A stretch of DNA of 11,862 nt from contig JALGWK010000101.1 in NCBI GenBank assembly GCA_025774205.1, positions 1 through 11,862 on the forward strand, given 5' to 3'. Below, in pieces: positions 3,054 to 11,862 of this stretch. This stretch comes from a bacterium. Its GTDB lineage: Bacteria > Blakebacterota > Blakebacteria > Blakebacterales > Blakebacteraceae. Each line of letters starts with the position of its first letter. The first letter of the stretch is position 1. Below the pieces are notes generated by a model that saw only the letters and a list, made by a program, of their open reading frames with translations, ran no database searches and had not been told where the DNA came from. The position numbers were made by a program, and so were the translations under genes.

Positions 3054-5602
3054 TTAGCCCTCCAGCCCGGCCAGGAGTTCTTTCACCTTCTCGTTCCGCT
3101 CCATCATCCCGGCCAGCTTCTCCCGCTCCCGCTCCACGACTTCAACCGGCGCCCGGTCGAGGAAGGAATCGTTCTCCAGTTTCGACCGGGAACCCTTGAT
3201 CAAGGTCTTTAAACGATCCCTCTCCCCGCTGAGCCGCTTGTGTTCCACCTCAAGATCAATGAGATCCTCGAGCGGCAGGAAGAGTTCCACGTCGCCGATA
3301 ACCGTCGAGGCTGATCCCGCCGGTTTCTCCAGGTCGGGACCGATCTCGACCTGTTCCAGTCGGGCCAGGGAGAGGATGAGGCCCTTCTCCTCCTCGAGGA
3401 TCCGGCCGGAGTCGTCGCTCCCGGTCCGGACGATCAGGTTCCCGCGTACCCCGGGGGGCACGTGCATCTCACCCCTGATGGCGCGGATCGAGGTGACAAC
3501 CTCCCTCAGGAGGGCGAACTCATCTTCCGTCTGTTCATCGATCAGGTCTGAGCGGGTTGCCGGCCAGTCGGATGTCATCAGGAAATCCTCTCCGACCTCC
3601 CGTCCGAGCGTTTCCTGCAGCCGTTCCCAGATCTCGCTCGTCACGAAGGGCATGACGGGGTGAAGCAGCTTCAGGATCCCTTCGAGCAGTTCCACAAGAA
3701 GTGACCTGACCGTGGCGGCTTCCGGGGAACCCGGGTCTTTCAGCCGCTCCTTGACCATCTCCAGGTACCAGTCACAGAACTCGTTCCAGACGAAGGCGTA
3801 GAGTTCCCGGGCGGCGTCGGAGTACTTCAGTCCTTCGAAATGAGCGGTGCACCGCTCGACACACCGATTGAACCGGCTCATGATCCAGCGGTCGGCCCGC
3901 TCCAGTTCCGTCTCCCCGGTGCCCGTCTCGTGCCCCTCCAGGTTCATCATCACGAACCGGGAGGCATTCCAGAGCTTGTTGGCGAAGTTCCGTCCCATCT
4001 CGAACCGGGACTCGGAGAGCTTCATGTCCTGCCCTTCGGTCGTCAGGAGACAGAGACTGTAGCGGACCGCGTCGGCGCCGTAGCGCTCGACCATCTCGAT
4101 CGGATCGATCCCGTTCCCGAGGCTCTTGCTCATCGGGCGACCCTGATCATCCTGGATCATCCCGTGGATGTAGAGGGTTTCGAAGGGAACCTGGCCGGTG
4201 AACTCCAGGCCCGCCATCACCATCCGGGTATCCCAGAAGAAGAGGATGTCGTAGCCGCTGATGAGGAGCGAAGTGGGATAGAACTCGGCCAGGTCCTCCG
4301 TCTCGCGGGGCCAGCCCATGGTGCTGAACGGCCACAGCCAGGAGGAGAACCAGGTGTCGAGGACATCGGGGTCCTGCTCCCAGTCGGTCCCCCCGCAGGA
4401 GTCGCAGGGCCCGGTCGGCTTGTCCCGGGTCACCTGCATCTCTTCGCACGTTTCGTTCCGGCAGTACCAGACCGGGATCCGGTGTCCCCACCAGAGCTGA
4501 CGGCTGATGCACCAGTCGTGGATGTTCTCGAGCCACTGCCGGTAGATCTTCTCCCACCGGGCCGGCTGGATGCGCGGACGACCCCGGTCGAGTTCGGCCA
4601 GCGCTTTCTCCGCCAGCGGTTTCATGCTGACGAACCACTGGTCAGAGAGGGCCGGCTCGATCACGGTGGCGCACCGGTAGCAGTGCCCGACAGAATGCTG
4701 GTGGTCGTCGATACCGACCAGCAGGCCGGCCGCCTCAAGGTCGCGGACAACGGCCTTGCGGGCTTCGAACCGGTCGAGTCCCTGATAGGGCCCGCCCACC
4801 TCGGTGATCGCGGCAGTCTCGTCAATGGCCACCAGGACGGGCAGATCGTGCCTGCCGGCGATGGCGAAGTCGTTCGGATCGTGGGCCGGGGTGACCTTCA
4901 CCGCGCCGGTACCGAAGTCCCGGTCGACCGCCTCATCGGCCACGACCGGGATCTCCCGGTCGAGGAGCGGCAGGATGACCATTGATCCGACCAGATCACG
5001 GTAGCGCTCATCATCGGGATGGACCGCGACGGCGGTGTCACCCAGCATGGTCTCAGGCCGCGTGGTCGCCACCACCACCCCGGGACCTCCCTCGCGGTCG
5101 GGATAGCGGACGTGCCAGAGGTGGCTGTCGTGATCCTGGTGCTTGACTTCTTCATTTGAGAGGGCCGTATGACAGTGGGGACACCAGTTGATGATGTAGT
5201 TGCCCCGGTAGATCAGACCCCGCTCATGCAGGGTGATGAAAACCTGGGCGACGGCCTCACTGAGGCCTTCATCCATGGTGAACCGTTCCCGGCTCCAGTC
5301 TACGCTCTGCCCGGTCCGGCGGATCTGGTTCTTGATGATCCCGTCGCGATACCGGCGTGATCGGTTCCGGGAACCCAGAGGGCGCGGCTGCCCAGCATGC
5401 GCTGGAAGCGGATCGGAATGTCTTCGAGGGTCTGGTCGAGGGCATGCCCCATGTGGAGTATCCCGGTCACGTTCGGGGGCGGGATCGTGATCGAATAGGG
5501 CTTGCCGCTGCCAGCGGGCGCGAACGCCCCCGCGGACTCCCATCGCTCATACCATCGCTCTTCGATGGCTGCCGGTTCGTATGCCTTGTCCATCCGGGTC
5601 AT
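3054..5602 (-). pseudogene. valS: Valyl-tRNA synthetase with an internal deletion and frameshift
   Basis: Class I synthetase that charges tRNA-Val in the cytoplasm. The N-terminal part reads from 5602 to about 5342 and includes [15 protein letters not shown] (HIGH-type motif at 5444-5455) and GTDHAGIAT. The reading then continues one frame over from about 5342 with GIIKNQIRR and [13 protein letters not shown]. Between these, family members have about 36 further residues, so roughly 109 bases (a number that is 1 modulo 3) are missing and the frame is shifted. The rest is intact: a CPHC pair, the CP1 editing domain (TTRPETMLGDTAVAVHP, GTGAVKVTPAHD), a four-Cys zinc site, WCISRQLWWGHRIP, DPDVLDTWFSS, a KMSKS-type motif written PMSKS (4136-4122), the anticodon-binding domain and the C-terminal coiled-coil arm with VVEREREKL. 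Restoring the gap gives about 885 residues, normal for ValRS. The start could be ATG 5602 or 5593, or GTG 5611. As read, it cannot give active enzyme. Confidence 0.9.
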
Positions 5603-5659
5603 CTGAATCACTTTCGGAAGAGGATCAAGGACCCAAGAAACGGAGCCCGAGGACCGGTG

Positions 5660-6487
5660 TCAACGGATGGGCTTCAGCTTCTCTTTCGCCCGGTGGGAAA
5701 GCGGTATCACCAGCAGCTTGCCGGTCAGGTCATTGGTGTCGACATAGACATCCGATTCGAAGACAGAAGTGAGATTCGTCCAGGTGAGAACCTCGTCGGT
5801 GACCCCCTCGGCGAAGACTCCGCCCTCCTTCAGGAGATAGATTCGATCGCAGTACTCGGCCGCCAGGTTCAGGTCGTGGAGGACGGTCAGCGCCACCAGC
5901 CCCTCTCCGACCGCGAGTTGCCGGACCAGGTCGTAGATCTCCACCTGGTACCTGATGTCGAGAAAACTGGTCGGCTCATCGAGCAGGATGGCTCCCGCTT
6001 CCTGCGCGATCGCGCGGGCGAAGATCACCCGCTGCCGCTCACCGGAAGAGAGCCGCTGGATATTCCTCGAGGCCAGGGACGCCGCTCCCGTGCGCTCAAG
6101 GGCCTTCCGCGCGATCTCCACGTCGAGTTCCGACTCGAAGGCCAGCCCCCTCAAATGGGGATGCCGACCCATGAGGACAACCTCGAGCGCCGTGAAGGGC
6201 AGCCCGGTCACCGTTTCCTGCGGGACGACGGCCACCCGGCGGGCAAGGTCCCGGGGGGGAACATCTCTCACTTCCTCTCCACCGACCGTTACCCTCCCCG
6301 TGTAATCACGGAGGATCCCGGCGAAGATTTTCAACAGGGTGGTCTTGCCCGATCCGTTCGGCCCCACGATCCCGACGATCTCACCCGGTTCCACCTCGAG
6401 ATCGACCGCGCGGAGCACCGGCGTCTCGCCGTATGAGAAGGAGAGATTCCGGGCCGCAAGCCGTCCGTTGCCATCAGGAGAAGGCAT
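5660..6487 (-). CDS. ABC importer ATPase of the B12/iron-siderophore class (BtuD/FecE/HmuV-like)
   Basis: The cytoplasmic ATPase that powers the adjacent FecCD-type permease. 275 residues with every ABC element intact: Walker A GPNGSGKT (42-49), Q-loop Q90 in VVPQE, signature LSSGE (146-150), Walker B ILLDEP (167-172) with catalytic E171, D-loop SFLD (174-177) and switch H204 in LHDLNLAAEYCD. The LHDLNLAAEYCD stretch and the preceding SFLDIRYQ are typical of the cobalamin/Fe-chelate importer subfamily. A C-terminal extension of about 45 residues follows the core. The ATG at 6487 lies inside the last codons of the permease gene (14-base overlap), with a strong ribosome site GGGGGAGGGATT just upstream, so translation is probably coupled. 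valS starts 57 bases after its stop (or a little more with the shorter start). Confidence 0.95.
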   Translation of the reverse strand: MPSPDGNGRLAARNLSFSYGETPVLRAVDLEVEPGEIVGIVGPNGSGKTTLLKIFAGILRDYTGRVTVGGEEVRDVPPRDLARRVAVVPQETVTGLPFTALEVVLMGRHPHLRGLAFESELDVEIARKALERTGAASLASRNIQRLSSGERQRVIFARAIAQEAGAILLDEPTSFLDIRYQVEIYDLVRQLAVGEGLVALTVLHDLNLAAEYCDRIYLLKEGGVFAEGVTDEVLTWTNLTSVFESDVYVDTNDLTGKLLVIPLSHRAKEKLKPIR

Positions 6488-7520
6488 AATCCCTCCCCCG
6501 TCGACGCAGCAGCCAGAGGAAGAAGGGCCCCCCCACCAGTGCCGTGACGACTCCGACCGGTATCTCGTTGGGCGCCGCCAGGGTCCTGGCCAGGAGGTCG
6601 GCGACCACGAGGAAGGCCGCCCCGCCGATGAACCCGGTTGGGATAAGTAACCGGTGGTCGGGTCCCAGTACGATCCTCAGCAGATGGGGCACCACCAGAC
6701 CGACGAAGCCGATGAGGCCGGCCACGGAGACGGTCAGGCCGGTCAGGAGCGAACCGAGGACGAAAGTGCGCCGCTTGATCCGTTCTACGTCCACCCCGAC
6801 CTGGATGGCCCCCTCCTCACCGAGGGCCAGGGCATTGTAATCGCGGGCCATGGCGAAGATGGCGATCGTCGCGAAAACTGTTACCACGGTGAATCCGGCC
6901 GTGGTCAGGTATCCCAGGTCATCCGGGACCCTGCCCATGAGGTAGAACACGATCGCGTGCAGCTGTTCGAGCGAGGCAATGCTCTGAATAAAGAAGATCA
7001 GGGCCGCGCAGAAGGCGTTGAAGATCACCCCGGTCAGGAGGATCGTGTGGACTGTGAACCGGCCTTCCCGCGAGGCGATCCGTTCGATCAGCACCAGCGC
7101 CAGCAGCGCGCCCGTGAACGCCAGTCCGGGTACTCCGAACCGGCTGATGAGTCCGGTTCCCGCTCCAAGTCCCACCAGGAGGGCCGTCACTCCGCCCAGG
7201 CTCGCGCCTCCCGACACCCCGAGGATGTACGGATCCGCCAGCGGATTGCGCAGCAGCGCCTGGAAGACGATCCCCGCCACCGTCAGCGCCCCGCCCAGGA
7301 CGGCGGCGAGCAGCACCCTCGGGAGACGCACCTCGAGGAGAATCCGGGAATAGAGCAGTCGATCATCGGGATCGAGTCCCCCACCCGCTCCGAGCAGCTT
7401 GAACAACGGCACGCGTACGGCGCCGACGCTGGTCGCGACCAGGAGCGACACCAGGAGGGCGGCCGACACGATCGCCACCCAGAAGAGGACCCGGCCCCCG
7501 GTCAGGCGATCATGGGACAT
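6474..7520 (-). CDS. FecCD-family ABC importer permease (BtuC-like)
   Basis: Inner-membrane subunit that forms the translocation channel as a dimer. About 348 residues, mostly hydrophobic, consistent with the roughly 10 helices of the family. Diagnostic segments are VRLPRVLLAAVLGGALTVAG, QALLRNPLADPYILGVSGGA and, near the C-terminus, GLVVPHLLRIVLGPDHRLL followed by VVADLLAR, all classic FecCD positions. I prefer ATG 7520 (MSHDRLTGG) because GGA sits five bases upstream and it overlaps the binding-protein gene by only 11 bases; ATG 7547 would add nine residues but has no ribosome site. The ATPase gene overlaps its 3' end. Substrate is a cobalamin, haem or siderophore-type compound by family; the sequence does not decide among them. 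Confidence 0.94.
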   Translation of the reverse strand: MSHDRLTGGRVLFWVAIVSAALLVSLLVATSVGAVRVPLFKLLGAGGGLDPDDRLLYSRILLEVRLPRVLLAAVLGGALTVAGIVFQALLRNPLADPYILGVSGGASLGGVTALLVGLGAGTGLISRFGVPGLAFTGALLALVLIERIASREGRFTVHTILLTGVIFNAFCAALIFFIQSIASLEQLHAIVFYLMGRVPDDLGYLTTAGFTVVTVFATIAIFAMARDYNALALGEEGAIQVGVDVERIKRRTFVLGSLLTGLTVSVAGLIGFVGLVVPHLLRIVLGPDHRLLIPTGFIGGAAFLVVADLLARTLAAPNEIPVGVVTALVGGPFFLWLLRRRGRDYAFS

Positions 7521-8466
7521 GGCGATCCATCGGTCCCAGATCTCCATCGGGGACGGCGCCGAACACTTCGGGGTGGATCATCTTCGCCATCAACTCGGCC
7601 ATCTCCGGCAGGCGGGGTCCCGGTATGGTGAGCCGCACCGGATCCACCTGGTACACCCTCTTCTCCCTGACAGCCGGCATGAAAGGCCAGCGCGCCCAGA
7701 CCCCCTCCAGCTGCCCCCGCGGAGATCCCGCCCGATTATCGGAGACATCGATTATCACCTCGGGCCGGCGTTCGATCGCGGCTTCAAGGGAGACCATCTG
7801 ATAGGTACCGAGGGCGTCATGGAAGATGTTCACTCCTCCGACCGCCCGCATGATCTCATCGAAGTGGGAACCAGGACCGGCCACATAGAGCGGATCGGTA
7901 CCCACCACCACCATCACCCGCCTGGCAGCGATCCCGTCGATCCGGGATCGCAGCAGATCCATCCGTTCCCCGATCTCCGACCTCAGGGCCCGGGCGCGCG
8001 TCTCAGCTCCGAGAGCCTGCCCGAGGATCCCGATCGCCTCGAGGGTGCCGTCGAAGGTATCGAGGGGCAGTTCGAGGACCTCGACTCCGAGATCGCGGAG
8101 CCGGCCGTGAACGGTTCCACCCGCTTCGCTCCGGACGGTGACGAAGAGTTCCACGCCCAGGTTCAGTATCTGCTCGATATTCGGGGTATTGTAGGCTCCG
8201 ATGGCAGGCAGGTTCTTCACCGCGGGCGGCCATTCCACGTAGTCCCCGACCGCCACCACCAGGTCGAGCTCTCCCAGGGCGTCTATGATCTCGACGGCCG
8301 CGGGAGCCATGGCCGCGATACGGAGCGACTCCTCTCCCCTCCTCTCCGCGCCCTCTCCCGCGTCCGGCCGACAGGCCACGATGAGCAGGAAGAGCAGGAG
8401 GATGGCGGCATGGGGGCCGCGGTTCGGTATTCCGTGACGGATCAGTGGCATCATCGAGAGATGCAC
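7510..8466 (-). CDS. Periplasmic substrate-binding lipoprotein of the BtuF/FepB class
   Basis: Captures the substrate outside the inner membrane and delivers it to the neighbouring permease. A lipoprotein signal ends in IVAC (Cys32 from the GTG start), so it is membrane-tethered rather than free, as is usual outside Enterobacteria. Two lobes joined by a long helix fit the type III fold: ARVVMVVVG-like strands are seen as RRVMVVVGTDPLYVAGPG, and the first lobe has LPAIGAYNTPNIEQILNLG, the usual 'lP.vG.y..pn.E.il.l.pdl' pattern. GGVNIF and VSLEAAIERRPEVII in the second lobe resemble BtuF-type proteins most. The start may be GTG 8466 (AGG five bases upstream) or ATG 8454/8451. No cobalamin riboswitch fits in the 46-base gap upstream, which instead holds a hairpin. 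Its 3' end overlaps the permease gene. Substrate remains open. Confidence 0.92.
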   Translation of the reverse strand: MHLSMMPLIRHGIPNRGPHAAILLLFLLIVACRPDAGEGAERRGEESLRIAAMAPAAVEIIDALGELDLVVAVGDYVEWPPAVKNLPAIGAYNTPNIEQILNLGVELFVTVRSEAGGTVHGRLRDLGVEVLELPLDTFDGTLEAIGILGQALGAETRARALRSEIGERMDLLRSRIDGIAARRVMVVVGTDPLYVAGPGSHFDEIMRAVGGVNIFHDALGTYQMVSLEAAIERRPEVIIDVSDNRAGSPRGQLEGVWARWPFMPAVREKRVYQVDPVRLTIPGPRLPEMAELMAKMIHPEVFGAVPDGDLGPMDRHVP

Positions 8467-8512: not shown

Positions 8513-9754
8513 TCAGGGTATGTATTCGCGGGGAGGCGGACTGGCCAATGAGACCTGTTTCAGTTCACTCAGCTGGCGTTCGATGGTCAGTATCCGGTTC
8601 CGAACATCGGTTCGCTCGGGGTTGAATCCCGGCGTCGAGAAGAGTCGGTTCAGTTCTTCGAAGATGGTGTGGAAACGGGCGACGATGAACATGTCGGGGG
8701 TTGGCTCCGGCTGCATGAGGACGCCTGACATGGCCATATCAAGTTCAGACCGGTCGCCCACGATCAGCTGCACCGTTATCTCTGTGGAATCGCGTACGGC
8801 TCTGACGGGCACCGCGGTGCCCGGTACCGTGGCCAGGACCAGGTCGCGCATGTGGAACGGGTCGAGCAACGGCTGACCGCCGTAGTGGGTCAGGCGATCA
8901 CCCACCGTCAGACCGGCCAGATCGGCGGGACCATCCTCGGAGACGGTCTGCAGAATGACGCTGTCAGGGATGTCCAGGTCGGCGGAACCGCCGATCCAGC
9001 CCCAGCGCACCCGTCCGAATTCCTCGATCTCACCCGCCACGTGGGCCGCGATATCCACCGTTATCGCTGCCGCGTTTCCCGGCCCGGTCTGGGTGATATC
9101 GGAAACGTACTGGAGGATGACGATCCCGACCAGTTCACCGGCGCTGTTGAGCAGCGGCGCGCCGCTCAGACCGGGATAAACCGGCAGGGTCGTGAATATG
9201 AAACCGGTAGGCATGACCGACCCGATCTCGCCCTGATGCAGGATGGTCCGCTCCTGGAGCGGATCGACCAGCAGCGTGATATCCCCCGCCTGGATCGGTG
9301 TTTCCGAGGGTCCGGGGGGTTCATTGCTGGAGATGAGTTCGTTGACCGAAAGAAGCGCCAGATGGGTGCTCTCGTCCGATCCGAGCAGAGTGGCCGACAT
9401 CCGCCGCCAGCCGACCTCCACCACGATCGAATCGGCGCCGATGACCACGTTCCTCGCCGTCAGGACCCGATTCGAGACTCCGAACCGCACTCCGGTCCCG
9501 ATGTTGAGGACTTCGAGGGTCGCCGATCGACCGCGGCTTCCAGGGTCGGGATCTTCGAGCGCAATCCGTGAATAGGAGAGGATCCTGACCGCGCTCTGCT
9601 GTCCCTTCGACTGGAGAGCTTCGAGCGGGAGCTGATCCGCACCGGCGGCGGCTCCGATTCTCTGGGCCTGGAGCGGCCCCGGAACCATCGCTGCCCCGAT
9701 GAGGAGCAGAGAGAGGATGGCGCTGGCGGATCGTGATCGGCGATGTGAAGGCAT
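8513..9754 (-). CDS. Secreted HtrA/DegP-like protein with a degenerate catalytic triad and one PDZ domain
   Basis: 413 residues with a Sec signal peptide (about 1-30, cleavage after LQA), a trypsin-like domain (about 50-245), one PDZ domain (about 252-335, with SEDGPADLAGLTVGDRL) and a C-terminal helical tail. The trypsin-like fold is clear from RVLTARNVVIGADSI, LLGSDESTHLALLSV and YPGLSGAPLLNSAGELVGIV. Against the HtrA pattern (TNNHVV, SDPRTDLAVL, PGNSGGP) the catalytic His is N102 and the Asp is H131; only S197 remains, in PGLSGAP. Proteolysis by the normal mechanism is therefore not expected. A role as chaperone, peptide sensor or scaffold in the periplasm is plausible. It sits 17 bases after the anti-sigma gene, where MucD/DegP sits in many sigma-E operons. 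The ATG at 9754 has no clear ribosome site. Also possible: an unrelated trypsin-fold protein with different chemistry. Confidence 0.88.
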   Translation of the reverse strand: MPSHRRSRSASAILSLLLIGAAMVPGPLQAQRIGAAAGADQLPLEALQSKGQQSAVRILSYSRIALEDPDPGSRGRSATLEVLNIGTGVRFGVSNRVLTARNVVIGADSIVVEVGWRRMSATLLGSDESTHLALLSVNELISSNEPPGPSETPIQAGDITLLVDPLQERTILHQGEIGSVMPTGFIFTTLPVYPGLSGAPLLNSAGELVGIVILQYVSDITQTGPGNAAAITVDIAAHVAGEIEEFGRVRWGWIGGSADLDIPDSVILQTVSEDGPADLAGLTVGDRLTHYGGQPLLDPFHMRDLVLATVPGTAVPVRAVRDSTEITVQLIVGDRSELDMAMSGVLMQPEPTPDMFIVARFHTIFEELNRLFSTPGFNPERTDVRNRILTIERQLSELKQVSLASPPPREYIP

Positions 9755-9771: not shown

Positions 9772-10320
9772 CTAGAAACTCACGGCCCTCGCTCCGGGCA
9801 GGCGGATGGGTGTTTCGCTCCGGGAAGTATCGGCCAATGCCAGCTGGTCCTCGAAGAGCCCCGATCCCTGCAGATCACCTATCTGCGGCGGGAGGATATA
9901 CCGCTGAAGCCGGTTCTGATCCACCGCGGAGAGTGTTTCGAGAGGAGCGTTATCCCCGTCGGTGACGGGAACTGTTCCTCCACCGCTGAAACCGGCCACG
10001 ACCAGGATGATCGCCGCGGCGGCCGCCGATGTCAGGAAGGGCACCGGCTTCAGCAGCGATATCACCCGATCCTTTCGGGCTTCACGATGCACCGCGCGCT
10101 TGATCGACCAGCTGATCTCTTCCGGGACATCGACGGAGTTCAGCATCTTCAGATCGAAGATGAGGGTCGACATGCCCTCCAGTCGGCGCCGGCAGGAGGC
10201 ACACTCCTCCAGGTGTGCCGCCACATCCCTCTCCAGCGAAGCAGAGAGAGAATGGTCCAGGTAGGAGGTGAGAACCTCGGCTACCAGACCGCAATATCCG
10301 TTTTCTTCACGCGTTCTCAT
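9772..10320 (-). CDS. Membrane-bound zinc-finger anti-sigma factor (zf-HC2/RseA-type role)
   Basis: 182 residues. The cytoplasmic N-terminal domain has the ZAS zinc site: C10, then H36-x3-C40-x2-C43 in AAHLEECASCRRRL, next to YLDHSLSASLERD. This is the fold that holds ECF sigma factors inactive. A single transmembrane helix follows (about 92-113, within VPFLTSAAAAAIILVVAGF), then a periplasmic tail of about 70 residues. It would be released by proteolysis or a conformational signal on envelope stress. The ATG at 10320 overlaps the end of the sigma gene by 14 bases, with GGGGAAG upstream, so the two are likely made in fixed ratio. The HtrA-like gene follows 17 bases later and could act on, or shield, this periplasmic tail (inference). 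Confidence 0.93.
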   Translation of the reverse strand: MRTREENGYCGLVAEVLTSYLDHSLSASLERDVAAHLEECASCRRRLEGMSTLIFDLKMLNSVDVPEEISWSIKRAVHREARKDRVISLLKPVPFLTSAAAAAIILVVAGFSGGGTVPVTDGDNAPLETLSAVDQNRLQRYILPPQIGDLQGSGLFEDQLALADTSRSETPIRLPGARAVSF

Positions 10321-10921
10321 GCCACTTCCCCAACTTCTCCTGGAGGATCAGACGTCCCCTGTTGAGTCGCGATTTTACTGTACCGACCGGCACCTGGACA
10401 ATGCCGGCGATCTCCTCATAGCTCATTTCCTGGATGTCACGCAGGATGACCACCTGCCGGTACCGCTCCGGGAGCTTCGCCACCTCATCCAGGAGTTCGG
10501 AAGCAGCCAGCCTGCTCTCCACCACCCGGTCGGGCATGGCCCGTTCATCGGCCAGCTCGTAATCGGGTTCATCCTCATTGTCGGATGGTCCGAGGCGAAG
10601 CATCCTCCACCGCTTCCGTCGGCGCCATTCGCTGCGCGCCAGATTGCCGGCGATGGTGTAGATCCAGGTCGAGAAGGAGGCGATGTTGCGGAATTCGCCC
10701 CGTTTCTTCCAGACCCGCAGGAAGGTCTCCTGGAGCAGATCCTCCGCCATGTCCGAGTCTTTGAGAAAACGGTTGAGGTACCCGTATATCCGCTCGTAAT
10801 AGCGATCCACGAGCAGGTCGAAGGCCACCATATTCCCATCCAGACTGCTGGAGAGGAGGGCCTCATCCGACATGAGAGGCAGATCAGCCTTATCGAGTTC
10901 CTGTTTCGTCAACACGGACAT
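10307..10921 (-). CDS. ECF-family RNA polymerase sigma factor (RpoE-like)
   Basis: 204 residues from ATG 10921, the usual ECF size. Region 2 (about 32-97) includes FDLLVDRYYERIYGYLNRF, the core-binding DMAEDLLQETFLRVW and FSTWIYTIAGNLARSEWRRR, which reads the -10. Region 4 (about 150-198) has LPERYRQVVILRDIQEMSY and the helix-turn-helix EEIAGIVQVPVGTVKSRL that reads the -35. There is no region 1 or 3. An alternative GTG at 10930 would add three residues; GTGAGG lies just before the ATG and GGAAAGG a little further up. The gene starts 22 bases after the lnt stop and overlaps the anti-sigma gene, so it may be transcribed both with lnt and from its own promoter in the end of lnt. Likely role is envelope-stress response, by context. 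Confidence 0.95.
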   Translation of the reverse strand: MSVLTKQELDKADLPLMSDEALLSSSLDGNMVAFDLLVDRYYERIYGYLNRFLKDSDMAEDLLQETFLRVWKKRGEFRNIASFSTWIYTIAGNLARSEWRRRKRWRMLRLGPSDNEDEPDYELADERAMPDRVVESRLAASELLDEVAKLPERYRQVVILRDIQEMSYEEIAGIVQVPVGTVKSRLNRGRLILQEKLGKWHENA

Positions 10922-10943
10922 GTGCCTCACGACCTTTCCATGG

Positions 10944-11862
10944 TTATGAGACCACTCTCCTCTGCTTCGGTTCCCTGAAAATGAACAGACCTGAAACTAC
11001 GACCAGGATGGCCAGCAGGGGTACCCAGTCCCCCGTCCGGGCGTAGAGCGTCAAACCCTTCTCCGGCCATACCCGCACAAGAATCGCGTCCTTCCGGTAG
11101 AGTGGCGTGGCCTGGTCGATCCGGCCCCATCGGTCCACGACGGCTGAGATACCGCTGTTCGCGGCCCGTATGACCGGCCGCCTGAATTCCACCGCCCGCA
11201 ACGCGGCCATCTGAAGATGCTGTCGCGGCATCGACGTCCTGCCGAACCAGGCGTCATTGGTGATGACGCTCAACACCTCCGCGCCGTTGACAACCTCCGG
11301 TTTCACGAGTCGTGAGAATGCGCTCTCGTAGCATATCAGCATGCCGATCGGCGGCACCCCGGGGGTCGCTTCGGTCCCGCCGAGCAGGGGCGCTTCCAGG
11401 CCCCTTGAGAAATCGGACCAGCCGAGGCTCCAGCTACGCATGAAATTGAGTATCTTCTGGTAGGGGATCCGTTCCCCGAAGGGCACCAGCAGGCGCTTGT
11501 GGTAGATCTCCTCGTCCGGTGTCATCCCCGAGGAGGTGACCATCATGGCCGAGTTGTAGTAGCGGGATGGTCGTTCGTTATAGATGAGGGAGAACCCCCC
11601 GGTCAGGATGGGCAGATCAAGGTCGCGCTGCAGGTTCAGCACAAACCGTCTCGCCTGCTGATGAAAATTGAGATGTTCCGGGATCGCCGTCTCGGGCCAG
11701 AGCACCAGTTCCAGCCCCTCTCCCGCCCGGGCCACGGCCGCCCGCGTGAGACGCTCATAGACGTAGAAGTTATAGGTGAGCAGCTGCGGAGCCAGTTTGA
11801 CACCCGGGCGTACGCTCCCCTGGATGATGGCCACGTCGAGGGGTTCGGTATCTGACGCCACC
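10944..11862 (-). CDS. lnt: Apolipoprotein N-acyltransferase, C-terminal part (5' end beyond the window)
   Basis: Adds the third acyl chain to the N-terminal Cys of lipoproteins at the periplasmic face of the inner membrane, the last step of lipoprotein maturation. 305 residues are visible: the nitrilase-like catalytic domain plus the last membrane helix; the preceding helices are outside the window. Numbering from the first visible complete codon, the Glu-Lys-Cys triad is E57 (VLWPETAIPE), K122 (YHKRLLVPFGERIP) and C177 (GMLICYESAF). Further Lnt signatures are VITNDAWFGRTSMPRQHLQM, the RAANSGISAVVDRWG segment and YARTGDWVPL leading into the final helix. The codon at the edge is a GTG, here an internal Val, so no start should be drawn there. 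The TAA is 22 bases before the sigma factor ATG. The window's two lipoproteins would be Lnt substrates. Confidence 0.96.
   Translation of the reverse strand, partial: VASDTEPLDVAIIQGSVRPGVKLAPQLLTYNFYVYERLTRAAVARAGEGLELVLWPETAIPEHLNFHQQARRFVLNLQRDLDLPILTGGFSLIYNERPSRYYNSAMMVTSSGMTPDEEIYHKRLLVPFGERIPYQKILNFMRSWSLGWSDFSRGLEAPLLGGTEATPGVPPIGMLICYESAFSRLVKPEVVNGAEVLSVITNDAWFGRTSMPRQHLQMAALRAVEFRRPVIRAANSGISAVVDRWGRIDQATPLYRKDAILVRVWPEKGLTLYARTGDWVPLLAILVVVSGLFIFREPKQRRVVS
10947..10974 (-). promoter_or_regulatory. Candidate sigma-E-type autoregulatory promoter inside the end of lnt
   Basis: On the minus strand GGAACCG (10974-10968) and TCTCA (10951-10947) are separated by 16 bases. This matches the layout known for sigma-E-class promoters (GGAACTT, about 16 bases, TCTnA), with five of seven -35 bases and all fixed -10 bases in place. 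Transcription would begin near 10940, about 20 nt before the sigma factor ATG. Autoregulation through such a promoter is usual for this sigma class. The match is by eye only. Confidence 0.5.

Follow-up and report, generated by a model that had tools for sequence, protein, structure and literature searches.

Most of what is known about the regulated intramembrane proteolysis of anti-sigma factors comes from E. coli and Pseudomonas. One HtrA protein encoded in a sigma factor operon, MucD, is an active protease and chaperone, whose gene comes after mucB and mucC in the algU-mucA-mucB-mucC-mucD arrangement and not directly after the anti-sigma gene. DegS, the site-1 protease of RseA in E. coli, and AlgW of P. 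aeruginosa are HtrA proteins with one PDZ domain that work on the periplasmic side and are linked to an ECF sigma factor and its anti-sigma factor. The PDZ domains of both read OMP-like C-termini, with DegS binding YxF ends and AlgW binding WVF (PMC8545111). DegS is catalytic and membrane-anchored, and its gene lies away from rseA. A different kind of periplasmic partner is represented by RseB and MucB, which are lipid-binding proteins and not HtrAs, are encoded behind the anti-sigma gene and shield the anti-sigma factor from site-1 cutting. Likewise, FoxA, a TonB-dependent transducer with no HtrA or PDZ domain, protects FoxR from proteolysis by binding to the FoxR C-terminal domain (PMC11637429). 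HtrA-type domains without catalysis have also been described, namely MamO and the plant proteins Deg6, Deg16 and the second domain of Deg7, which have other roles (PMC3905215, PMC3473262); MamO acts in magnetosomes and the inactive Degs in plants, and neither is tied to an anti-sigma factor. Dead HtrA domains and guards of anti-sigma factors are each already known. No earlier account linking a family of dead HtrAs to anti-sigma and ECF sigma factors was found in the open literature, most subscription papers being outside the scope of the search.

The locus described here lies in a window of 11,862 nucleotides, the whole stretch of bacterial DNA that was analysed. On its minus strand, the gene order is lnt, ECF sigma factor, anti-sigma factor and an HtrA-like protein that we refer to as pseudo-HtrA. 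The first gene of the run (10944..11861, partial) encodes an apolipoprotein N-acyltransferase, with an NCBIfam lnt match above the cut-off, and is considered only as an operon neighbour for which no role is claimed; the end of an lnt-homologous gene is also found upstream of the sigma gene in L005-L007. The ECF sigma factor (10307..10930, 207 aa) carries Sigma70_r2 and r4 and matches sigma70-ECF, with orthologues that are 79-89% identical, and its gene overlaps by 14 bases with that of the anti-sigma factor (9772..10320, 182 aa), a membrane protein with a zf-HC2 domain, one TM segment predicted from a hydrophobic stretch at about residues 93-111, and orthologues of its own. A gap of 17 nt separates the anti-sigma stop from the pseudo-HtrA start. 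The coordinates 8513-9754 given for the latter by the first-pass annotation are correct, to which the strand, minus, can now be added; the ORF starts with ATG, encodes 413 aa and has no internal stops. Its position behind the anti-sigma gene is that of RseB, and the same order recurs in 30 operons, whereas the fold is not that of RseB, since Pfam and structure searches give HtrA. Directly behind pseudo-HtrA, on the same strand (5660-8466), are genes for a BtuF-like binding protein, a BtuC-like permease and an ABC ATPase (BtuCDF type), and BtuF-like and permease genes likewise follow pseudo-HtrA in G001 and G003. Further along the minus strand, valS, encoding valine-tRNA ligase (3054-5611), is split by a break near 5350, where one frame runs into a stop and another continues, with some 35-40 residues and the frame seemingly lost compared with the usual ValRS sequence, probably through an assembly error in this essential gene.

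With regard to domain composition, pseudo-HtrA matches Pfam Trypsin_2 (E 2e-13) and PDZ, and its likely cleavable signal peptide (residues 1-31; 9662..9754) can be read from a hydrophobic core at residues 11-24 followed by LQA-Q, with a helix at residues 10-21 in the model. The first-pass annotation had correctly described both the signal peptide and the PDZ domain as intact. The AxA-like site after the hydrophobic stretch suggests cleavage. An HMMER alignment to DegS of known structure places N102 (codon AAC, 9449..9451) at the catalytic His of 'TNKHV', H131 (CAT, 9362..9364) at the Asp of 'LTDLAVL' and S197 (AGC, 9164..9166) at the Ser of 'GNSGG', and, as a second test, an AlphaFold model superposes on the DegS fold; the triad positions initially proposed for these residues are confirmed. 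The loop around the serine has also changed, with GLSGAP in place of GNSGGP. The model, built from a 56-sequence alignment (pLDDT 81.4, pTM 0.73), superposes on DegS chain 3gdu_C, which has the peptide YRF bound, with a Z score of 30.0 and an rmsd of 3.1 over 283 residues; its best structural matches are DegS structures with YRF or YQF peptides, and the matches listed are HtrA proteins. MucD, which resembles pseudo-HtrA in being an HtrA protein of a sigma operon, matches with a Z score of 28.0 (8k2y). The comparison with MucD drawn in the first-pass annotation is looser than that with DegS, whose peptide-bound structures come closest. Having the trypsin-like fold and a PDZ domain and lacking the His-Asp-Ser triad, pseudo-HtrA is, as judged from its residues, an HtrA/Deg homologue and not a working member of that family, and cleavage of the anti-sigma factor by pseudo-HtrA itself is unlikely without the triad.

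The phylum-level lineage of the window is represented by four genomes in the collection used, and pseudo-HtrA is found in all four, in the same operon. The three orthologues are 48-66% identical to the protein of the window and their frames are open. The former His position is occupied by N, S, T and A in the four proteins and the former Asp position by H, Q, G and G, while the catalytic serine is kept in all three full orthologues, the fourth copy ending at the end of its contig. Such a loss in the same operon of four genomes, with drifting residues, argues against both a recent mutation and an error as the source of the triad loss, which, as judged from the orthologue alignment, is ancestral, with the exact residues free to drift. 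It is therefore true, as had been remarked, that N102 and H131 are each one base away from the active codon, but this is uninformative for an ancestral loss (the orthologues have S/Q, T/G and A/G at the two positions), and an importance of these two particular residues as such finds no support, since both drift even within the phylum. Sequencing error or pseudogene decay might be suspected in a metagenome-assembled genome with at least one likely error nearby, in valS; however, orthologues at 66% and 49-50% identity with full open frames share the same loss in the same operon, so this reading is rejected and retains practically no probability. The open frames of the four orthologues, the conserved PDZ domain and the occurrence of the family across many lineages support the earlier view that a non-proteolytic function has been maintained.

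Relatives beyond this lineage were sought in 241 genomes, using the sigma factor as the query and not the HtrA-like protein, so that the sample is blind to the state of the triad. Sixty ECF-sigma neighbourhoods outside the lineage were examined, including one in G196, and a profile built from the dead proteins found first was then used to add further loci. An HtrA-like gene stands directly behind the anti-sigma gene in 30 operons, 4 in the lineage and 26 elsewhere, and the catalytic His is absent in every one of them; L173, with its upstream flank missing, is one more dead copy beyond these 30. Among the 27 full dead sequences, His is retained in none, Asp in 7 and Ser in 18, in contrast to the HtrAs encoded elsewhere, in which each of the three residues is present in 39 out of 39. 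With Ser lost in 9 of the 27, the idea that the serine is kept for a purpose finds no support either. The sole apparent exception among HtrAs fetched regardless of sigma genes, L041, itself follows an anti-sigma gene. At this locus (L168/L041, in G004) the dead HtrA is lipoprotein-like (VAGCGRG). A cation transporter gene parts its anti-sigma gene from the closest ECF sigma gene, and the last residues of the anti-sigma factor are still LELF. When the three catalytic columns are left out of the alignment, a FastTree phylogeny still divides all 27 dead proteins from all 39 active ones, to which they are roughly 19-25% identical, by a single branch (support 0.975). A single origin of the dead HtrAs thus appears likely, although long branches may aid the grouping. 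The family very probably spans many phyla, given that the first relatives were one per family and that the phyla tested hold few genomes (1, 1, 4 and 8, with one each around G060 and G104).

The PDZ domain of pseudo-HtrA (residues 250-335; 8750..9007), modelled with a pLDDT above 90 over most of its length, is a single one that has kept its carboxylate-binding loop, GWIGG. Loop and core are conserved in the 27 pseudo-HtrAs, the loop reading [WYF]-[LIF]-G followed mostly by V or I and the core being kept as in active HtrAs. The variability of the PDZ domain is close to that of active HtrAs (entropy 2.25 in dead and 2.03 in active proteins), whereas the protease domain is relaxed (2.24 against 1.32), also at positions beyond the triad. 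Two C-terminal, coiled-coil-like helices follow in the model (residues 353-404; 8543..8698), and most pseudo-HtrAs have a similar tail with a short coiled coil after the PDZ domain, including L089, L093, L103, L120 and L122; this element might bind the anti-sigma factor or take the place of trimer contacts. The number of PDZ domains is not always one, since some dead HtrAs (L110 in G221, L117 in G011) carry two or three.

The anti-sigma factor of the window ends in GARAVSF-COOH (9775..9795), a tail proposed here as the PDZ ligand. GARAVxF is invariant in all four orthologues, while the region before it varies; a YxL-type motif that precedes the tail is common in the family and absent from many members. 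An anti-sigma factor ending in F, Y or W is found in 28 of 30 operons with a pseudo-HtrA neighbour and in 2 of 43 without an HtrA-like neighbour, a control group with some added noise, the ORF taken as the anti-sigma factor being uncertain in some of its loci. The rule was defined on a first set, in which 26 out of 28 anti-sigma factors with an HtrA-like neighbour had such an end, most commonly [V/I]-x-[F/Y], against 1 out of 25 without (L115; Fisher test, about 1e-11), and was then tried on 20 fresh loci. There, F is the last residue of both anti-sigma factors that have an HtrA-like neighbour (L203 and L220, both neighbours being dead) and of one of the 18 that have none (L204). Since related operons are not independent, the loci were roughly collapsed by hand to about 19 and 40 lineages, which left the Fisher value at about 1e-10. 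The rule is broken by L089 and L124, which have a pseudo-HtrA neighbour and end in TVTFSP and TAGGL, and by L115 and L204, which lack the neighbour and end in W or F. At L204 (G104:C146), the C-terminal domain of the anti-sigma factor is TonB-like and its last residues are STF. The pairing of a dead HtrA with an F/Y-ended anti-sigma factor is, on these counts, well supported. Furthermore, the C-termini of three TonB-dependent receptors from the lineage, EVRF, EVHF and RFYF (L197, L199 and L196), are of the same kind as the AVRF/AVSF of the anti-sigma factors.

Active proteases are also encoded in the lineage. The search for a separate active HtrA, advised in the first-pass annotation, found in the same genome a two-PDZ, Do-type protein (L001/L034) with an intact triad (NNHV, KTDVA and GNSGG). 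The sister genomes encode an HtrA that has one PDZ domain and a complete triad (L037 and L039), L040 being a fragment with the Ser end only; this DegS-like active HtrA was not found in the window's own, incomplete genome, in which the two-PDZ Do type is the only one. A gene for an RseP-like site-2 protease is present as well.

The known PDZ ligands, the conserved PDZ domain and the OMP-like tails together lead to the proposal that the anti-sigma tail is held by the dead protein, with OMP tails as competitors. Co-occurrence, conservation and homology make it probable that the PDZ domain of pseudo-HtrA binds this tail. The catalytically dead protein is probably a guard or a sensor, holding in place of cutting, and the earlier suggestion of a sensor or protector of the anti-sigma factor continues to be the best reading, backed by the paired F/Y tail. 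In the proposed mechanism, pseudo-HtrA would be a periplasmic, dead relative of DegS acting as a binding protein, whose PDZ domain would grip, in the periplasm, the free C-terminal end of the anti-sigma factor, which is AVSF-COOH in this operon and mostly [VI]-x-[F/Y]-COOH across the family. Less certainly, this grip would keep the anti-sigma factor out of reach of an active site-1 protease, a catalytic HtrA being encoded elsewhere, and of the RseP-like site-2 protease. When misfolded OMPs with the same kind of C-terminus accumulate, they would compete for the PDZ domain; the released anti-sigma factor would then be cleaved, setting the sigma factor free. In this way, the guard role of RseB and the OMP-tail sensing of the DegS PDZ domain would be united in the dead protein. 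The differences from the DegS system are the loss of the triad, the position of the gene after that of the anti-sigma factor, and an OMP-like tail on the anti-sigma factor itself. Fold and ligand also differ from those of RseB and MucB, which share with the proposed role a periplasmic partner behind the anti-sigma gene, and the proposed binding to the C-terminal part of the anti-sigma factor would be shared with FoxA and FoxR. A guard relieved by OMP competition is the best explanation at hand, its direction, guard or helper, following by analogy with RseB/MucB and FoxA, and we hold it to be evenly balanced between right and wrong.

The tail pairing would fit equally well with a positive regulator, in which the PDZ domain of the dead protein binds the tail and mixed trimers with an active HtrA hand the anti-sigma factor over to be cut. 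In favour of this, HtrA proteins function as trimers, the lineage encodes active HtrAs, and in plant Deg7 the protease domain that is inactive has a role in trimerisation (PMC3473262). Nevertheless, this role is unlikely: the operon encodes no active HtrA, mixed trimers are made less likely by the wide divergence of the dead proteins from active HtrAs, and protection is the role of the additional partners known for membrane anti-sigma factors, such as RseB and FoxA (PMC8545111, PMC11637429).

It is similarly doubtful, and if anything more so, that pseudo-HtrA is a periplasmic chaperone which belongs to the sigma regulon, binds misfolded proteins as DegP does in its chaperone function, and leaves the anti-sigma factor untouched. 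HtrA proteins do have chaperone activity and envelope sigma factors often control folding factors, both of which favour such a role. PMC12826053, too, deals with HtrA as a chaperone. This reading, however, leaves unexplained both the constant position of the gene after that of the anti-sigma factor and the confinement of F/Y anti-sigma ends to operons with a dead HtrA next door. A protease that still cuts, using S197 with a different base, would account for the serine found in 3 of 3 full orthologues and 18 of 27 relatives, yet the absence of His from all 27, the retention of Asp in only 7, the loss of Ser from 9, the replacement of H131 by Q or G in orthologues, the changed GNSGG loop and the relaxation of many positions that are fixed in active HtrAs render it highly improbable, and an alternative active site is rejected.

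The guard with OMP competition leads to a broader proposal, which we put forward tentatively and with somewhat less than even confidence: an ancient and widespread class of envelope-stress switch in which a dead DegS-type PDZ domain would clamp an OMP-like anti-sigma tail, and unfolded OMPs would activate the sigma factor by competition and not by switching on a protease. It leads to a sharp and cheap test, the binding of the last anti-sigma residues by the PDZ domain. For genome annotation, 'HtrA' labels beside anti-sigma genes are likely wrong as to enzyme activity, and a dead HtrA together with an F/Y-ended anti-sigma factor offers a genomic signature of such circuits. If the proposal is true, many little-studied phyla would have a different wiring of this response, with holding in place of cutting.
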